DNA of 64,000 nt from Rhodoblastus sphagnicola. GTDB taxonomy: Bacteria; Pseudomonadota; Alphaproteobacteria; Rhizobiales; Beijerinckiaceae. Under the pieces are notes generated by a model. That model was given only the letters and a program-made list of their open reading frames with translations. It had not been told where the DNA came from and ran no database searches. The stretch's first letter is position 1. Each line of letters opens with the position of its first letter. The stretch covers positions 1 to 64,000 of the forward strand of contig NZ_NHSJ01000123.1 of assembly GCF_002937075.1 (NCBI RefSeq), read 5' to 3'. The position numbers and the translations under genes are program-made. Shown here in pieces: positions 13,463 to 43,919 of the stretch.

Positions 13463-15535
13463 TCAGTGCGCCGGGGTTTTGGCCGCCGCGCGGTTCGCGA
13501 CAATGGCGTCCGCCGACTTGCCGGCGATTTCGGCCCAATGGTCGAATTTCTGCGTGAACGACCCGACGCCGGCCGTGGCGGAGCGCAGTTCGACGATGAG
13601 ACCCTCCATTTCCGCTTCGGGAATCAGGGCGTTCAGGACGTCCCAGCCCTCCCAGTCCGGTCGGGCGTCATAGCCGAGAATCTGTCCGCGCCGGCCGGAG
13701 ACGATCGCGGTGATCTTCGACAGAGAGTCGCTCGGCGTGGTGATTTCCACGGACTGGATCGGCTCCAGCAGCACGGGGCCGGCCTTGGCCAGCGCTTCGG
13801 CCACGCCGAGGCGCGCCGCCGTGCGGAAGGCCATGTCCGAGGAATCCACCGTATGGTAGGAGCCGTCCGTCAGTGTCACCTTGACGTCCACCACCGGGAA
13901 CCCGAGCGGCCCGCGCTCCAGCGCGTCCACGCAGCCCTCCTCGATCGCGCCAAAATAGTTCCGGGGCACCGCGCCGCCATGCACGGTCTCGTTGAAGGCG
14001 AAGCCCTCGCCGCGGGTCAGGGGGGCGACATCGAGTGCGACGTCGCCGAACTGGCCATGGCCGCCGGACTGTTTCTTGTGGCGTCCCCGCACATTGACGG
14101 TTTGGCGAATGGTCTCCTTGTAGCCGACCGCCGGCTTGTGGGTTTCCACCAGCACGCCGAACCGCGCCGCGAGACGCTCCAGCGCCACGCGCACATGCAT
14201 CTCGCCCTGGCCGAGCAGGCGCATCTCGGCGGCCTCCTGGTCCTGCGCGAACACCAGCGACGGATCCTCCTCGCACAGCTTGGCGATGGCGGTGGCGAGG
14301 CGCGCCTCGTCCTTGCGGTCCTTCACCGTCACGGCCAGCCCATAGGCCGGCGCCGGCGGCGCGATCGCAGCCACGACCGGCGCGGGAACGCCGCCCTTGG
14401 CGTCGCCGAGACTGTCGCCGGTGGCGACATGGTCGAGGCGGCCGAAGGCGACGCAATCGCCTTCCTCGACCCTGGCCTGCTTGCTGCTCGCCACGCCCAT
14501 CAGGCGCGAAAGCCCGGAGATGCGGTCCTCGCCGCGCGCGCTCTTCACCGTCGCGCCATCGACGAAGGCGCCGCGCAGCACGCGCGCGAAGCTGAGCTTG
14601 CCGCCATGCGCGGTATGGATGGTCTTGATGACATGGGCGAGCGGCGCGCCTTCATCGGCGATCCCCAGCCGCGCGCGCGTCCGGGCGATCGCCGGCGCTT
14701 CGTGGCGCAGCGCCTTCAACAGGCGGGTGACGCCGTGGCCTTCCGAGGCCGAGCCGATCAAAACCGGGGCGACCCGGCCGTCGCGCAGGTCGCGCCTCAG
14801 ATCGTCGAAAATCTGGTCGCGCGGCGGCTCGATATCGGAGAGCAGTTCCTCCATCAGGCCGTCGTCATAGTCCGCCAGCTTCTCCAGCATGGTGTAGCGG
14901 GCTTCCTTCTCGGTCGGCAATTCGCCGGCGGGCACGTCCACCACCACCGACGGCGCGTGTTCGCGATAGACAAAGGCGCGTTCGAGCGCGAGATCGATGA
15001 AGCCGGTGACGATGCCGTTCTGCCAGATCGGAATCTGCCGCAACAGCAGCGGCGTGCGCGAGGCCGGCTGCAACAGCGCGAGGGCGTCGCGGATTCGCAC
15101 ATTGGCGGCGTCGATCTTGTTGATGAACAGGACGCGCGGCAGGCCGAGATCCTCGAGTTCGCGCAGGATCACGCGCAGCGCCGGCAGTTTGCGCTCGTCC
15201 GCCTCGCACACCACCACGGCGGCGTCGCACAGCGGCAGCACGTTGCGGGCCTCGTAGGCGAATTCGACGGAGCCGGGCAGATCAACGAAGGTGAAACGGT
15301 CGCCGAGATAATCGACGGAAGCGATGTTGACCTCGACGCTGGCGGCGTGGGCGCGGGCCTCGGGACTGGAATCGCCGACGGAGGAGCCGTCGCGCACGGA
15401 TCCCTGGCGCGCCAGCGCGCCGCCGCGGGTCAGAATGGATTCGAGCAGGCTGGTCTTGCCGCTCTGGAACGGGCCAACCAACGCAATCAAGCGCGGGCCC
15501 GCTACGCGTCTGTCGCCGGGCAGAACTTCGCTCAT
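13463..15535 (-). CDS. Elongation factor G-like GTPase (EF-G paralogue)
   Basis: 690 residues with EF-G domain order: P-loop GPFQSGKTS (21-29), DLPGS switch motif and NKID guanine-specificity motif in the G domain, then EF-G domains II-V ending near residue 670. It is about as long as EF-G but diverged: the usual DTPGH is DLPGS, so the catalytic His of switch II is replaced by Ser. This type is an alphaproteobacterial EF-G paralogue of uncertain role, not the main translocase, which is normally in the rpsL-rpsG-fusA-tuf cluster. It is a single gene, divergent from the TauE-like transporter. Confidence 0.88.
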   Translation of the reverse strand: MSEVLPGDRRVAGPRLIALVGPFQSGKTSLLESILTRGGALARQGSVRDGSSVGDSSPEARAHAASVEVNIASVDYLGDRFTFVDLPGSVEFAYEARNVLPLCDAAVVVCEADERKLPALRVILRELEDLGLPRVLFINKIDAANVRIRDALALLQPASRTPLLLRQIPIWQNGIVTGFIDLALERAFVYREHAPSVVVDVPAGELPTEKEARYTMLEKLADYDDGLMEELLSDIEPPRDQIFDDLRRDLRDGRVAPVLIGSASEGHGVTRLLKALRHEAPAIARTRARLGIADEGAPLAHVIKTIHTAHGGKLSFARVLRGAFVDGATVKSARGEDRISGLSRLMGVASSKQARVEEGDCVAFGRLDHVATGDSLGDAKGGVPAPVVAAIAPPAPAYGLAVTVKDRKDEARLATAIAKLCEEDPSLVFAQDQEAAEMRLLGQGEMHVRVALERLAARFGVLVETHKPAVGYKETIRQTVNVRGRHKKQSGGHGQFGDVALDVAPLTRGEGFAFNETVHGGAVPRNYFGAIEEGCVDALERGPLGFPVVDVKVTLTDGSYHTVDSSDMAFRTAARLGVAEALAKAGPVLLEPIQSVEITTPSDSLSKITAIVSGRRGQILGYDARPDWEGWDVLNALIPEAEMEGLIVELRSATAGVGSFTQKFDHWAEIAGKSADAIVANRAAAKTPAH

Positions 15536-39568: not shown

Positions 39569-40303
39569 ATGCCCGACCAGGACCACCTTTTCGACCTACG
39601 CGCGGCCGACGCCGCCTCGCTCCTTGCCCGGGAAACGCCGAGCGAGACGCAGCGCGCGCATATGCGGCTGTGCGAGGCGCTGGTTTTCGCGGCGGAGGAA
39701 CCGCTCGGCGAAGAGGAAATGGCCAAGCGCCTGCCAGAGGGCGCCGATGTCGCCAAGGCGCTGGCCTATCTGAAAGCCGAATATTTCGGGCGCGGCGTAA
39801 ACCTCGTCCGGGTCGGGAAGAAATGGTTTTTCCGCACCGCGCCGGACCTCGCCTGGGCGTTGCAGCGCGAGCAGGTCGAGCCGAAGAAACTGTCGCGCGC
39901 CGCCATGGAGACCCTGGCGATCATCGCCTATCACCAGCCCGCCACCCGCGCGGAAATCGAGGATATCCGCGGCGTCGCGCTGTCCAAGGGCACGATGGAC
40001 GTGCTGCTGGAGACCGGCTGGGTGCGGTTGCGCGGCCGCCGCCGCGCGCCCGGCCGTCCCGTGACCTTTGGCACGACCGACAAGTTCCTGCTGCATTTCG
40101 GCCTGGAGCAGATCGCCGACCTGCCGGGCCTCGATGACTTGAAGGCGGCCGGCCTGTTCGACGGGCGCCTGCCAAAGGGGTTCGGCGTGCCGCAACCGCG
40201 CGACGATTCCGCCCTGATGGACGACGAGGAGCCGCTCGGCGACGAACCGCTCGGCGAGGCTTTCGCCCCCGATCCGTCGGAAGGCGAAGCGGAGGAAAGT
40301 TAG
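39569..40303 (+). CDS. scpB: Segregation and condensation protein B
   Basis: Winged-helix regulator of the Smc-ScpA condensin, 244 residues. Two winged helix domains lie in residues 30-190, with the family motif AIIAYHQPATRAEIEDIRGV and GWVRLRGRRRAPGRPVTFGT. The C-terminal tail is acidic. tatA-tatB-tatC usually follow in Rhizobiales but are absent here. Confidence 0.95.
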   Translation: MPDQDHLFDLRAADAASLLARETPSETQRAHMRLCEALVFAAEEPLGEEEMAKRLPEGADVAKALAYLKAEYFGRGVNLVRVGKKWFFRTAPDLAWALQREQVEPKKLSRAAMETLAIIAYHQPATRAEIEDIRGVALSKGTMDVLLETGWVRLRGRRRAPGRPVTFGTTDKFLLHFGLEQIADLPGLDDLKAAGLFDGRLPKGFGVPQPRDDSALMDDEEPLGDEPLGEAFAPDPSEGEAEES

Positions 40304-40650
40304 CCTGTCCCTACCGGAGGCTGCCAACGGAGAGAGTCGCGAATGGGCGTCATGTCCAAGTAAGCATATAGAATTGCCTTGGGTTCTTCGCAATCTTTGC
40401 GCGCCCGTTTCGAATGAATTCCCTTTGAGCGTTCGTTGTGCTTGGTGGCCCATTGTGGGAAAAGATTCCATGCCGGTTCCTCAAGAACGTCAAATATGCG
40501 ATTCCGCCTCGGCGTAGCAGGGGGAGAGACTCGGCTTATGAAGAAGTCGGCTAAAGCCGCCCCGAGCGCGGGGTCATTTCAGAGGCCATGGCTGAGGCGG
40601 GGCCGCCGCCGAAGTCCCCAAATGAAATCGACAGCATTGGAGAAGAATTC
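40304..40650. other. Intergenic region before the radical SAM gene
   Basis: 347 bp without a credible gene. Composition drops from GC-rich toward AT-rich across it. The left boundary of the presumed insertion is probably here, but no integrase, direct repeat or tRNA end is visible. Confidence 0.5.
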
Positions 40651-41772
40651 ATGCGTAGCGGGTATTGGAAGCGAATCCTGAAGCAGAACCTGCCCCTCGT
40701 TTCTCGGCTTTATAGAGAGCGAGATGGCGCGAGATTTAAATTAAATACGACAAAGGACGAGCTGGCGACGACAATAGATGAGCTAAATGTTACAAAAAAT
40801 GAGTTAACGGCAACAAGCAACAATTTACATACTGCGCATAATGACCTGATAAACGCAAAGAATGAGCTGGCCGGTGCGCAAGTCGAAATAACGACAATAA
40901 AGAACGAGTTAAACACAACAAGAGCGCATATTGATCAGCGAATGCAATCGGAAGCTGTGCAAATGCGGAGACTAACGAAGTTAACACCACGTAATATAGG
41001 CCGGTTTCAAACGCATATCGTCGATCACTGTAACCTGAACTGCGCAGGATGCGCTCACTTTTCAAATCTTCATAGTGAAAAATTTCTTAGTGTTGAAGAA
41101 TATAGGCGCGATTATGAACGGCTCTCGCATTTGTTTCGTGGCGAGGCTGAGCTAATCGAAATTTTAGGTGGCGAGCCGTTGCTGCACAAAGAAATCAATT
41201 CATTTATGGAAATTGCCAGAGCCTGTTTTCCAAACGCGCCGGTCCACATATTGACCAACGGGCTGTTGCTATCGAAGATGGACGACGCGTTCTGGGAGTC
41301 CATGAAAAAATTCAAGATTTCTCTTCGCATGTCAAGATATCCGATCAAGGTAGATTATGATAAATTTGCTCGGATTTGTCGGGATAAAGGCATTGCTGTC
41401 CTTTTATCCGATGAGAACGTCCAGTGGATTTCCCAAAATATTGACTTGCACGTGGCGCCTAACGGACATAGTCCTGAAAGGAATCTGAATAACTTTATTA
41501 ATTGTTATGGCGCCAATTTAGATTTTACCCTCCGAAATGGGCGTATTTATACCTGTCCGCAGGCCGCTTACGCATATACATTGAAAGATTACTTTAATGC
41601 TCCGATTTCTATTTCGGACCGCAACAGCATAAATATCCATGACAACATAAGCGCCGACGAAATTATGGCGTTTTTAGCTCGCCCGATCCCGTTTTGTCAC
41701 TACTGTCGCGTGGAGGAACGCCATCCAATACCTTGGAAAGTCTCGAAAAGGGAGATCGAGGAGTGGGCGTGA
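40651..41772 (+). CDS. Radical SAM protein with N-terminal leucine-heptad coiled coil
   Basis: 373 residues. The start ATG 40651 has GGAGAAG eight bases upstream; ATG 40588 is an alternative with a poor site. Leu/Ile recur every seven residues at 31, 38, 45, 52, 59, 66, 73, 80, 87 and 94, a long coiled coil. The radical SAM cluster site is DHCNLNCAGC (Cys127, Cys131, Cys134), with GGEPLLH downstream. The C-terminal FINCYGANL, TCPQ and FCHYC suggest an auxiliary iron-sulfur site. DNA is markedly AT-rich relative to all neighbours, indicating transfer. Similar enzymes occur in surface polysaccharide loci; substrate unknown. Confidence 0.85.
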   Translation: MRSGYWKRILKQNLPLVSRLYRERDGARFKLNTTKDELATTIDELNVTKNELTATSNNLHTAHNDLINAKNELAGAQVEITTIKNELNTTRAHIDQRMQSEAVQMRRLTKLTPRNIGRFQTHIVDHCNLNCAGCAHFSNLHSEKFLSVEEYRRDYERLSHLFRGEAELIEILGGEPLLHKEINSFMEIARACFPNAPVHILTNGLLLSKMDDAFWESMKKFKISLRMSRYPIKVDYDKFARICRDKGIAVLLSDENVQWISQNIDLHVAPNGHSPERNLNNFINCYGANLDFTLRNGRIYTCPQAAYAYTLKDYFNAPISISDRNSINIHDNISADEIMAFLARPIPFCHYCRVEERHPIPWKVSKREIEEWA

Positions 41773-42116
41773 TGTGGGTTACTGGGACATGATGCGAATC
41801 GCATAATTTCGCAATCTTCTTTGTTGTCGCCCAGCTTTCTAGTTGCGGGCAAGAGGGCGTGCGTGAGAATGGATGGGATTTCCCTCAATTTTCAGGCGCT
41901 TCCGAACGCCGACGATGAAGACTCTTGTGCTCTCGCTTGCCGCGAGACTTGTCATAAGAAATCCGAATGATCCATTCGGATTTCTTATTCCGTTCGCGCG
42001 GAATTTCGCCGTCGCGATCTAGAGCATGATCCCAAAAAGTGGACACCGGTTTTTGGAAAAAATCATGCGAAAACAAAGTGTCTAGAGCACGATGCGCGCG
42101 GCGGCATGATGTTCGG
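41773..42116. other. Intergenic region after the radical SAM gene
   Basis: 344 bp without a gene. It returns gradually to GC-rich composition and contains the palindromic repeat at 42021-42068. CGAAAACAAAGTGTCTAGAGC just beyond the repeat is the tail usually attached to this repeat family. Confidence 0.55.
42021..42068. repeat. Rhizobial intergenic palindrome, AAAAGTGG/CCGGTTTT type
   Basis: Outer arms GCATGAT and ATCATGC, with core AAAAAGTGGACACCGGTTTT. It is the best-preserved of four copies in the window. Confidence 0.8.
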
Positions 42117-43919
42117 TCAGACCTTGCCGGTTTTCTTCCTGCTGTCGCCCGCGCTCTTTTCGTCGTGAGGTTTCTTGTCGCTGTAGGGCTTTCTGTCGCC
42201 GTCGGGTTTCTTGGCGAAGCGGGATTTCGCGCGGGCCTGAAGCTCCTGATCGCTGGGCGCGCTGGCCAGATCCACCGGGATATTGTCCGGGCCGGGCCGG
42301 CGCATCGCCTTCAGGAAAGCTTCCGCCTTGGCGCTGGCGATCTCGACCTTGGTCTCGTCCTGGAAAATGCGGATCGCGCCGATTTCCTCGCGGTTCAGGC
42401 CGCCCTTCCGGCACAGCATGGGCAGGATCCATTTCGGCTCGGCGCGCTGGCCGCGGCCGACGCCGAGCCGCACCCACACCGAATCGGTCATGTCGACGCG
42501 CGCGCGCGGCTCGCGGCGCTCCTTGTCCCGCGGCGGCGGCGCGGAGCCGGGGTCCTTGAGTTCCTCGGCGGCCGGCCAGCGCGCCGACAGGAAACGGGCG
42601 AGCGCCGCCGCGCATTTTTCGGCGCCATGCTGCGCGAGCAGGCTGTTGGCCAACTCCACCTCTTCCTCGTCGCCAGCGTGGGAAAATACCGGGTCTTCGG
42701 CGATGCGGACGCGGTCGAGTTTCGCGATATCCTCCGGTCCCGGCGCGATCTGCCAGACCGGAAACACTTGCGCGTCGGAGAACAGGTTTTCCGCGCGACG
42801 GTTCATCTTCGGCGGGATCAGCAGGGCGGACACGCCCTTTCGCCCCGCGCGGCCGGTGCGGCCGGAGCGGTGTTTCAGCGCCTCGACATCGTGGGGGAAG
42901 TCGGCGTGAACCACCAGCCCGACGCTGGGCAGGTCGATGCCGCGCGCGGCGACATCGGTGGCGACGCAAACCTTCGCCCGGCCGTCGCGCAAGGCCTGCA
43001 TCGAGAGATTGCGCTCGTGCTGGCCGAGTTCGCCGGACAGCAGCACGGCGGAAAAGCCGCGTTCCAGCAGGGTCGCCTGCAAATGGCGCGAGGCGTCGCG
43101 GGTGTTGCAGAACACGATGGTGGTCGGCGGATCAAAATAGCGCAGCAGATTGACCACGGCCTTTTCGATCTCGCGCGGATCGACGCGCACGGCGCGGTAT
43201 TCGATGTCGGCATGGGCGCGCGCCGCGCCGACCACCTCAAGGCGCAGGGCGTCGCGCTGGAATTTCTTGGCCAGCGCCGCGACGCCCTTGGGCATGGTGG
43301 CGGAAAACAATACGGTGCGGCGACCTTCCGGGGCGGAGCCGAGAATGAATTCGAGATCCTCGCGAAAACCCATGTCGAGCATTTCGTCGGCCTCGTCGAG
43401 GGCGATCGCGGCGATATGCGACAGGTCGAGCGCGTGGCGTTCGATATGGTCGCGCAACCGTCCGGGCGTGCCGACCACGATATCGGCGCCGCCCGCCAGC
43501 GCGCGGCGCTCGAAATGCGGGTTCATGCCGCCGACGCAGGACACGATGCGCGCCCCGGCATAGGCGTAGAGCCAGGTCAGTTCGTGGGCCACCTGCAACG
43601 CCAGTTCGCGGGTCGGCGCGACCACCAGGGCGGCGGGCGCCGTGCGCTCCGGCAATTTGCCGGACTCTCCGAGCAGGTTGGCCGCCATGGCGAGGCCGAA
43701 GGCGACGGTCTTGCCGGAGCCGGTCTGGGCGGACACCAGCAGGTCGCGGCCCTCCGCGTCGGGCCGCAGCACGGCTTCCTGCACCGGCGTGAGGCTCTTG
43801 TAATCGCGTTCGTCGAGCGCGCGGGCGAGGGCGGGGGGAATCGTGGACAGGGTCAAGGAATAGCCGATCTGGATTTGTCTGTTCCCGGGAAGGGAGATTA
43901 CAGCACAAGGTGACGTCAT
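42117..43919 (-). CDS. DEAD-box RNA helicase with DbpA-like RNA-binding domain
   Basis: 600 residues. Helicase motifs: AQTGSGKT, PTREL, DEADEMLDMGF, FSATMP, and HRSGRTGRAGRKG. A DbpA-type RNA-binding domain is near residues 460-530 (VWVRLGVGRGQRAEPKWIL), followed by a lysine-rich tail. It probably acts in 50S ribosome assembly or RNA decay. The start at MTSPCAVISL abuts a repeat; TTG 43856 is another possibility. Confidence 0.93.
   Translation of the reverse strand: MTSPCAVISLPGNRQIQIGYSLTLSTIPPALARALDERDYKSLTPVQEAVLRPDAEGRDLLVSAQTGSGKTVAFGLAMAANLLGESGKLPERTAPAALVVAPTRELALQVAHELTWLYAYAGARIVSCVGGMNPHFERRALAGGADIVVGTPGRLRDHIERHALDLSHIAAIALDEADEMLDMGFREDLEFILGSAPEGRRTVLFSATMPKGVAALAKKFQRDALRLEVVGAARAHADIEYRAVRVDPREIEKAVVNLLRYFDPPTTIVFCNTRDASRHLQATLLERGFSAVLLSGELGQHERNLSMQALRDGRAKVCVATDVAARGIDLPSVGLVVHADFPHDVEALKHRSGRTGRAGRKGVSALLIPPKMNRRAENLFSDAQVFPVWQIAPGPEDIAKLDRVRIAEDPVFSHAGDEEEVELANSLLAQHGAEKCAAALARFLSARWPAAEELKDPGSAPPPRDKERREPRARVDMTDSVWVRLGVGRGQRAEPKWILPMLCRKGGLNREEIGAIRIFQDETKVEIASAKAEAFLKAMRRPGPDNIPVDLASAPSDQELQARAKSRFAKKPDGDRKPYSDKKPHDEKSAGDSRKKTGKV

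Follow-up and report, generated by a model that had tools for sequence, protein, structure and literature searches.

The 64,000-nucleotide stretch of Rhodoblastus sphagnicola DNA analysed here, referred to below as the window, carries between scpB and a helicase gene a coding sequence of foreign origin, whose product shows the motifs and predicted fold of a radical SAM protein. Our preferred reading, which we hold to be about as probable as its opposite, is that the gene, laterally acquired and standing alone, encodes a twitch radical SAM enzyme of an unnamed SpeY-like family that acts on surface-glycan sugars.

The gene and its surroundings

The twitch radical SAM frame is real and comprises 394 aa. 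Its features, with those of its immediate flanks, are as follows (window coordinates):

40304-40587 (+): leader between scpB and the radical SAM frame, GC 0.56 (composition; promoter search)
40347-40363 (+): left arm of an inverted repeat, 17 nt, 15/17 matching (repeat search; shuffles)
40588-41772 (+): twitch radical SAM open reading frame, 394 aa, with a likelier start at 40651 (373 aa)
40639-40645 (+): GGAGAAG, likely ribosome-binding site for the start at 40651 (read from the sequence)
40741-40932 (+): ten Leu/Ile in a seven-residue register, codons 52-115 (residue count; helix in the model)
41029-41052 (+): CNLNCAGC, radical SAM cluster motif, codons 148-155 (Pfam; alignment)
41503-41556 (+): auxiliary-cluster cysteines 1-2, D312 and GX4C, codons 306-323 (alignment; family profile)
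41695-41706 (+): CxxC, last two auxiliary-cluster cysteines, codons 370-373 (alignment)
41779-41795 (-): right arm of the inverted repeat, 17 nt (repeat search; shuffles)

The start at 40651 appears more likely than that at 40588, because GGAGAAG sits five bases ahead of its ATG. The earlier note had assigned the span 40304-41772 to the gene; the gene is present there, but 40304-40587 is leader and the frame opens at 40588 or 40651. Two promoter-like sites were detected in 40250-42200, versus 2.2 in shuffled sequences, none of them ahead of the radical SAM gene, and neither Rfam families nor tRNAs were found within the window. At a distance from this region, 13463-15535 (-) resembles a divergent elongation-factor-G-type GTPase, as judged by reading its translation.

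Evidence for lateral acquisition

Counted from 40651, the radical SAM gene has a GC of 0.444 and a GC3 of 0.483, whereas its seven neighbours (argS, a SPOR-type protein gene, scpA, scpB, the DEAD-box helicase gene, trpE and tpiA) range from 0.634 to 0.730 in GC and from 0.796 to 0.862 in GC3. The codon check agrees, with nine TTA and nine ATA codons in this gene versus three and one in the seven neighbours combined, and the deviating composition remarked on in the earlier note is confirmed. Computed per 100 bases, GC stays at 0.37-0.55 throughout 40601-42100, and the leader is mixed (0.51-0.64).

Searches with the family profile at an E-value of 1e-30 retrieved the window copy only, among 298 family and 397 order genomes (overlapping sets), as did single-sequence searches among 100 relatives and, at 1e-15, among 385 class genomes; at 1e-9, two further weak matches were detected among 398 phylum genomes. 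Lateral acquisition is thus well supported by the occurrence of a single copy across the family and order genomes. Composition, absence from the remaining genomes searched (297 of the family, 396 of the order), phylogeny and a differing slot in genus mates all agree with the transfer proposed earlier, and neither vertical inheritance across the family nor the same location in relatives was found. In the tree, the window protein groups with two Clostridia, with a support (94/71) that is not strong and a bootstrap that is unsettled, and three proteobacterial members lie apart from it, with Eggerthellaceae at 100/100. Contamination is an unlikely source of the gene, since resident housekeeping genes surround it over the 64-kb stretch.

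A variable slot beyond scpB

The gene had been described as standing in the usual place of tatABC, a view that holds only outside the genus. There, tatA lies beyond scpB in 9 of 19 loci (L016-L018 and L020-L035, each covering about 1.5 kb beyond scpB), versus 0 of the 9 genus mates with readable DNA (a further one, G010, ends at scpB). The tatA-tatB-tatC genes of the window genome, which the earlier note had proposed to look for elsewhere, were located on contig C83; tatABC is therefore not expected after scpB in this genus, and its displacement by the radical SAM gene was rejected.

A convergent helicase gene was found beyond scpB in the eight genus mates whose contigs are long enough. As read from translations, the scpB-helicase interval (40304-42116 in the window; L036-L044) contains a chemotaxis-receptor-type gene in G001, and in G005 up to the contig end, a carrier-type gene in G002 and G004, and a small membrane-type gene in G003; it is near-empty in G006, G007, G008 and G009 among the translations listed. 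Since single genes differ among genus mates, this comparison of sequences indicates that the interval is a variable single-gene slot. The leader had no blastn match in the genus-mate loci at an E-value of 1, so that nothing left over from the G001/G005 receptor-type gene was seen. On the other side, resident sequence probably resumes at about 41951-42010, which matches G001 at 78%, close to the helicase gene of that genome. This region also includes a perfect 16-nt hairpin (41954-41988), and TCTAGAGCAYGAT is repeated at 42018 and 42081.

The inverted repeat was equalled in 3 of 1500 shuffles, but it was picked from 25 pairs. Also flanking the segment is a direct repeat (40341-40355 and 41761-41775), 15 nt long and matching at 13 positions. 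Across 13 genomes, no other copy of the inverted-repeat pattern was found at 0-1 mismatch; with two mismatches, there were 27 matches versus 5 for the reversed control, several of them representing the same string in genus mates. Against plasmids, the leader gave no match and the trailer a single 34-base match at an E-value of 0.9. These flanking repeats are a hint of a one-gene mobile unit, similar to a mobile insertion cassette.

Catalytic part of the protein

The CxxxCxxC core recognized in the earlier note corresponds to C148, C152 and C155 (Pfam Radical_SAM, 45.6 bits for a cut-off of 29.5), and its Cys-rich C-terminus to C306, C323, C370 and C373, which are conserved in the family. In an alignment of 75 rows (74 loci and the window, six of 80 loci having been dropped for frames shorter than 240 aa), C148, C152, C155, C306, C323 and a GGEPLL motif occur in all 75, C370 in 73 and C373 in 74; alignment A4 comprised 48 of the 80 loci.

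The predicted model displays a radical SAM fold (pLDDT 86), and its leading structural matches are all radical SAM proteins. Twitch proteins are characterized by four auxiliary cysteines, arranged as C-x(n)-G-x4-C ... CxxC, without the further cysteines of SPASM, a C-terminal motif of seven cysteines. The window sequence fits this pattern (C306, G318, C323, C370 and C373, with no Cys past 373), and the protein is, from cysteine pattern and predicted fold, a twitch-type radical SAM protein. The SPASM subgroup was ruled out, with only four cysteines from residue 306 onward. For model residues 134-394, SpeY is the top structural match (VIA Z 25.7, 2.2 A, 247 residues), followed by BtrN (Z 14.9) and by entries at 14.2 or below; Foldseek ranks SpeY and BtrN in the same order. 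The family profile matches SpeY at 4.5e-26, and the next match stands at 2.8e-13. NCBIfam model NF033640 (twitch domain-containing radical SAM protein) scored 31.9 bits, below its cut-off of 170, and the window protein reached the cut-off of no model among those listed (25 of 49); cut-offs were compared for this protein only, the scan of 49 family members being run without them.

An N-terminal heptad tail

Ahead of the catalytic part, the ten Leu/Ile in strict seven-residue steps noticed earlier are indeed present (L52, L59, L66, L73, L80, L87, L94, I101, L108 and I115), and the longest Leu/Ile heptad run obtained by shuffling residues 45-124 20,000 times was 6. AlphaFold2 predicts a single helix at residues 56-132, in which residues 61-130 reach block means of 74-94. 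If Leu occupies one of the two core positions, the second is filled by T,T,T,T,A,A,A,I,T,R, and those flanking the core are mostly Lys/Arg and mostly Glu; flanking charges around a Leu core would suit a coil with salt bridges along its edges. The heptad was also considered as a recent 21-bp tandem array, a candidate that was rejected with 0 rows in Tandem Repeats Finder; weak 21-spaced copies do exist. The same heptad was not found elsewhere in the window genome at an E-value of 0.1.

In none of the 51 homologues with an N-terminal part longer than 45 residues does a strict Leu/Ile run exceed 4, and L079 has a run of 7 once L, I, V or M are counted. Elsewhere in the family, the N-terminus is a Rossmann-type domain (L091), a family 2 glycosyltransferase (L068) or a short stretch. 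Because these N-termini differ and strict runs do not exceed 4 in the 51 homologues, the tail is, on sequence grounds, the odd part of the window copy. In the place of the Rossmann-type domain of its nearest kin, the heptad helix might join subunits, as in the oligomeric enzyme suggested in the earlier note, or dock the enzyme. The glycosyltransferase fusion (L068:4909-6942, 678 aa), assigned to L068 by length and sequence, combines this N-terminal domain and the radical SAM part in one chain and is the one such case in 49 members.

Family distribution and gene neighbourhoods

A scan of GTDB species contigs yielded at least 306 relatives, 80 of which were kept; a closer relative may exist. The kept sequences, mostly from phyla other than that of the window, are distributed among Clostridia, Selenomonadales, Spirochaetes, Bacteroidales, Gastranaerophilales, Synergistaceae, Eggerthellaceae, Campylobacter, Helicobacter and others, and the top identity to the window protein is 43% among the relatives listed. 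A same-strand gene lies within 100 bases in 48 of the 80 loci, with none in 23 and nine undecided at contig ends. Neighbours were defined as same-strand genes within 350 bases and of at most 1000 aa, 48 of 52 being scanned upstream (four near-duplicates dropped) and 33 of 33 downstream. Of these, 5/48 upstream and 8/33 downstream neighbours are family 2 glycosyltransferases, while 7/48 and 2/33, respectively, carry a radical SAM domain. Most scanned neighbours are not glycosyltransferases; some are housekeeping genes (secA, adk, argG-type), and some Gastranaerophilales copies share ribosomal-type genes, as read from the neighbours.

Glycan genes were found around the chosen loci L051, L054, L056, L064, L091 and L106, including those for UDP-GlcNAc 2-epimerase, glycosyltransferases, CDP-glycerol transferase, DegT aminotransferase and carbamoyltransferase, together with a methyltransferase near the cut-off. 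A distant relative in Streptomyces SAT1 has a glycosyltransferase gene on one side and an NAD-dependent epimerase/dehydratase gene on the other. No glycan gene is adjacent to the radical SAM gene in the window. The surface-glycan role put forward in the earlier note finds support in part of the family, through its neighbours and one fusion, but none for the window copy, which stands alone. That a broad SpeY-like family occurs in many gut anaerobes, in part next to glycosyltransferase genes, suggests a role for radical chemistry in the building of surface glycans.

Several observations accompany this distribution. A second protein family lies near family loci in 11/80 cases, its representative (L091:4406-5650) carrying a Radical_SAM domain. 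The Brachyspira member L100 has a weak match (28%) to a radical SAM gene on the B. hyodysenteriae plasmid NZ_CP046931.1; passages of a published report describe radical SAM and glycan genes on a B. hyodysenteriae plasmid (PMC4267127). Apart from these, titles and abstract openings in one literature collection revealed no paper on the window protein's family. Plasmids and phages each gave one weak match to the window protein. Viral contigs gave no match with the single protein, and searches by alignment found 447 relatives, of which 80 were retained, with identities of 31-33% for the best that are full-length. Distant relatives on viral contigs are L131-L140, and another lies within a run of glycosyltransferase genes in Synechococcus phage S-SCSM2R (L050:5998-6798).

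Predicted reaction and alternative readings

One alignment position, column 312, six residues ahead of the GX4C glycine, may bear on the reaction. It is Cys in 69 of the 75 rows, Ser in 3, Tyr in 1, His in 1 and Asp only in the window; SpeY has a Ser at this column in the profile alignment, and the Streptomyces SAT1 protein a Cys in a five-sequence alignment. HygY is reported to be a twitch epimerase that displays dehydrogenase activity upon mutation of one cysteine, and Cys249 of NeoN is described as the residue that supplies a hydrogen atom. With the family Cys replaced by Asp in the window and Ser in SpeY, dehydrogenation would therefore be expected over epimerisation; judged from column 312, most family members may be epimerases and the window copy a dehydrogenase. 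At the [4Fe-4S] cluster ligated by C148, C152 and C155, SAM would be cleaved to generate a 5'-deoxyadenosyl radical, which would abstract hydrogen from a carbinol carbon of the sugar. The second electron would then pass to the auxiliary cluster of C306/C323/C370/C373, yielding a keto sugar. The Cys/Asp/Ser difference at this column offers a direct test of the divide between epimerases and dehydrogenases.

The same class of sugar enzyme might instead catalyse a redox-neutral epimerisation, D312 or another residue supplying or relaying the hydrogen, a reading that we regard as unlikely but worth keeping in view. A cysteine at column 312 in 69 of 75 members is what would be expected were epimerisation the family reaction, and hydrogen-donor cysteines have been described for NeoN and HygY; the window copy, however, has lost this Cys, the dehydrogenase SpeY has a Ser at the aligned place, and epimerisation as the family reaction is itself hypothetical. 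Somewhat less probable still is a transient foreign passenger without function in its host: as a lone gene lacking partners and absent from genus mates, with unadapted codons and no promoter-like site upstream, it has the looks of one, but the frame is full-length, all cluster ligands are retained and the start has a good ribosome-binding site. The modification of a peptide or protein is the least probable of these alternatives and, in our view, quite improbable; SuiB, SkfB, EpeE and anSME do occur in the fold list (Z about 12-14), but SpeY is ahead by more than 10 Z units, the SPASM seven-cysteine pattern is absent, and glycosyltransferases are the commonest named neighbours of the family other than radical SAM genes.

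Our preferred reading of a laterally acquired twitch enzyme acting on surface-glycan sugars could be extended to the way in which the gene arrived. A one-gene mobile unit would then have brought into this genus an epimerase-to-dehydrogenase variant of an undescribed glycan-acting twitch family, with the donor Cys changed to Asp and the Rossmann-type module exchanged for a ten-heptad coil, a combination that is improbable as a whole and should be ranked just above peptide modification.

Comparison with known systems

SpeY (PDB 7wzv, 7wzx, 7x0b), a twitch radical SAM dehydrogenase, shares its fold with the window protein over residues 134-394, as well as the CxxxCxxC motif, the auxiliary-cluster C...GX4C and a residue other than Cys at column 312. 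In contrast, identity between the two proteins is 24%, and the SpeY chains have no matching heptad tail, the aligned part beginning at SpeY residue 3. The twitch radical SAM fold is also shared by BtrN (4m7t), a 2-deoxy-scyllo-inosamine dehydrogenase (Z 14.9), but with 17% identity and an rmsd of 3.7 A, this match is far weaker than that of SpeY. To our knowledge, those twitch radical SAM enzymes whose sugar chemistry has been proven stem from antibiotic pathways.

Among the relatives listed, the clostridial L091 is the nearest, with 43% identity over 256 columns and identical cluster ligands. It differs by a predicted Rossmann-type N-terminal domain instead of the heptad (model pLDDT 85), which matches WbaP, Rex and succinyl-CoA synthetase at Z about 8.5-9, and by a Cys at column 312; its gene adjoins a second radical SAM gene, with a carbamoyltransferase gene nearby. 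HygY and NeoN are described as radical SAM enzymes that epimerise sugars, with one cysteine determining the outcome or donating the hydrogen.
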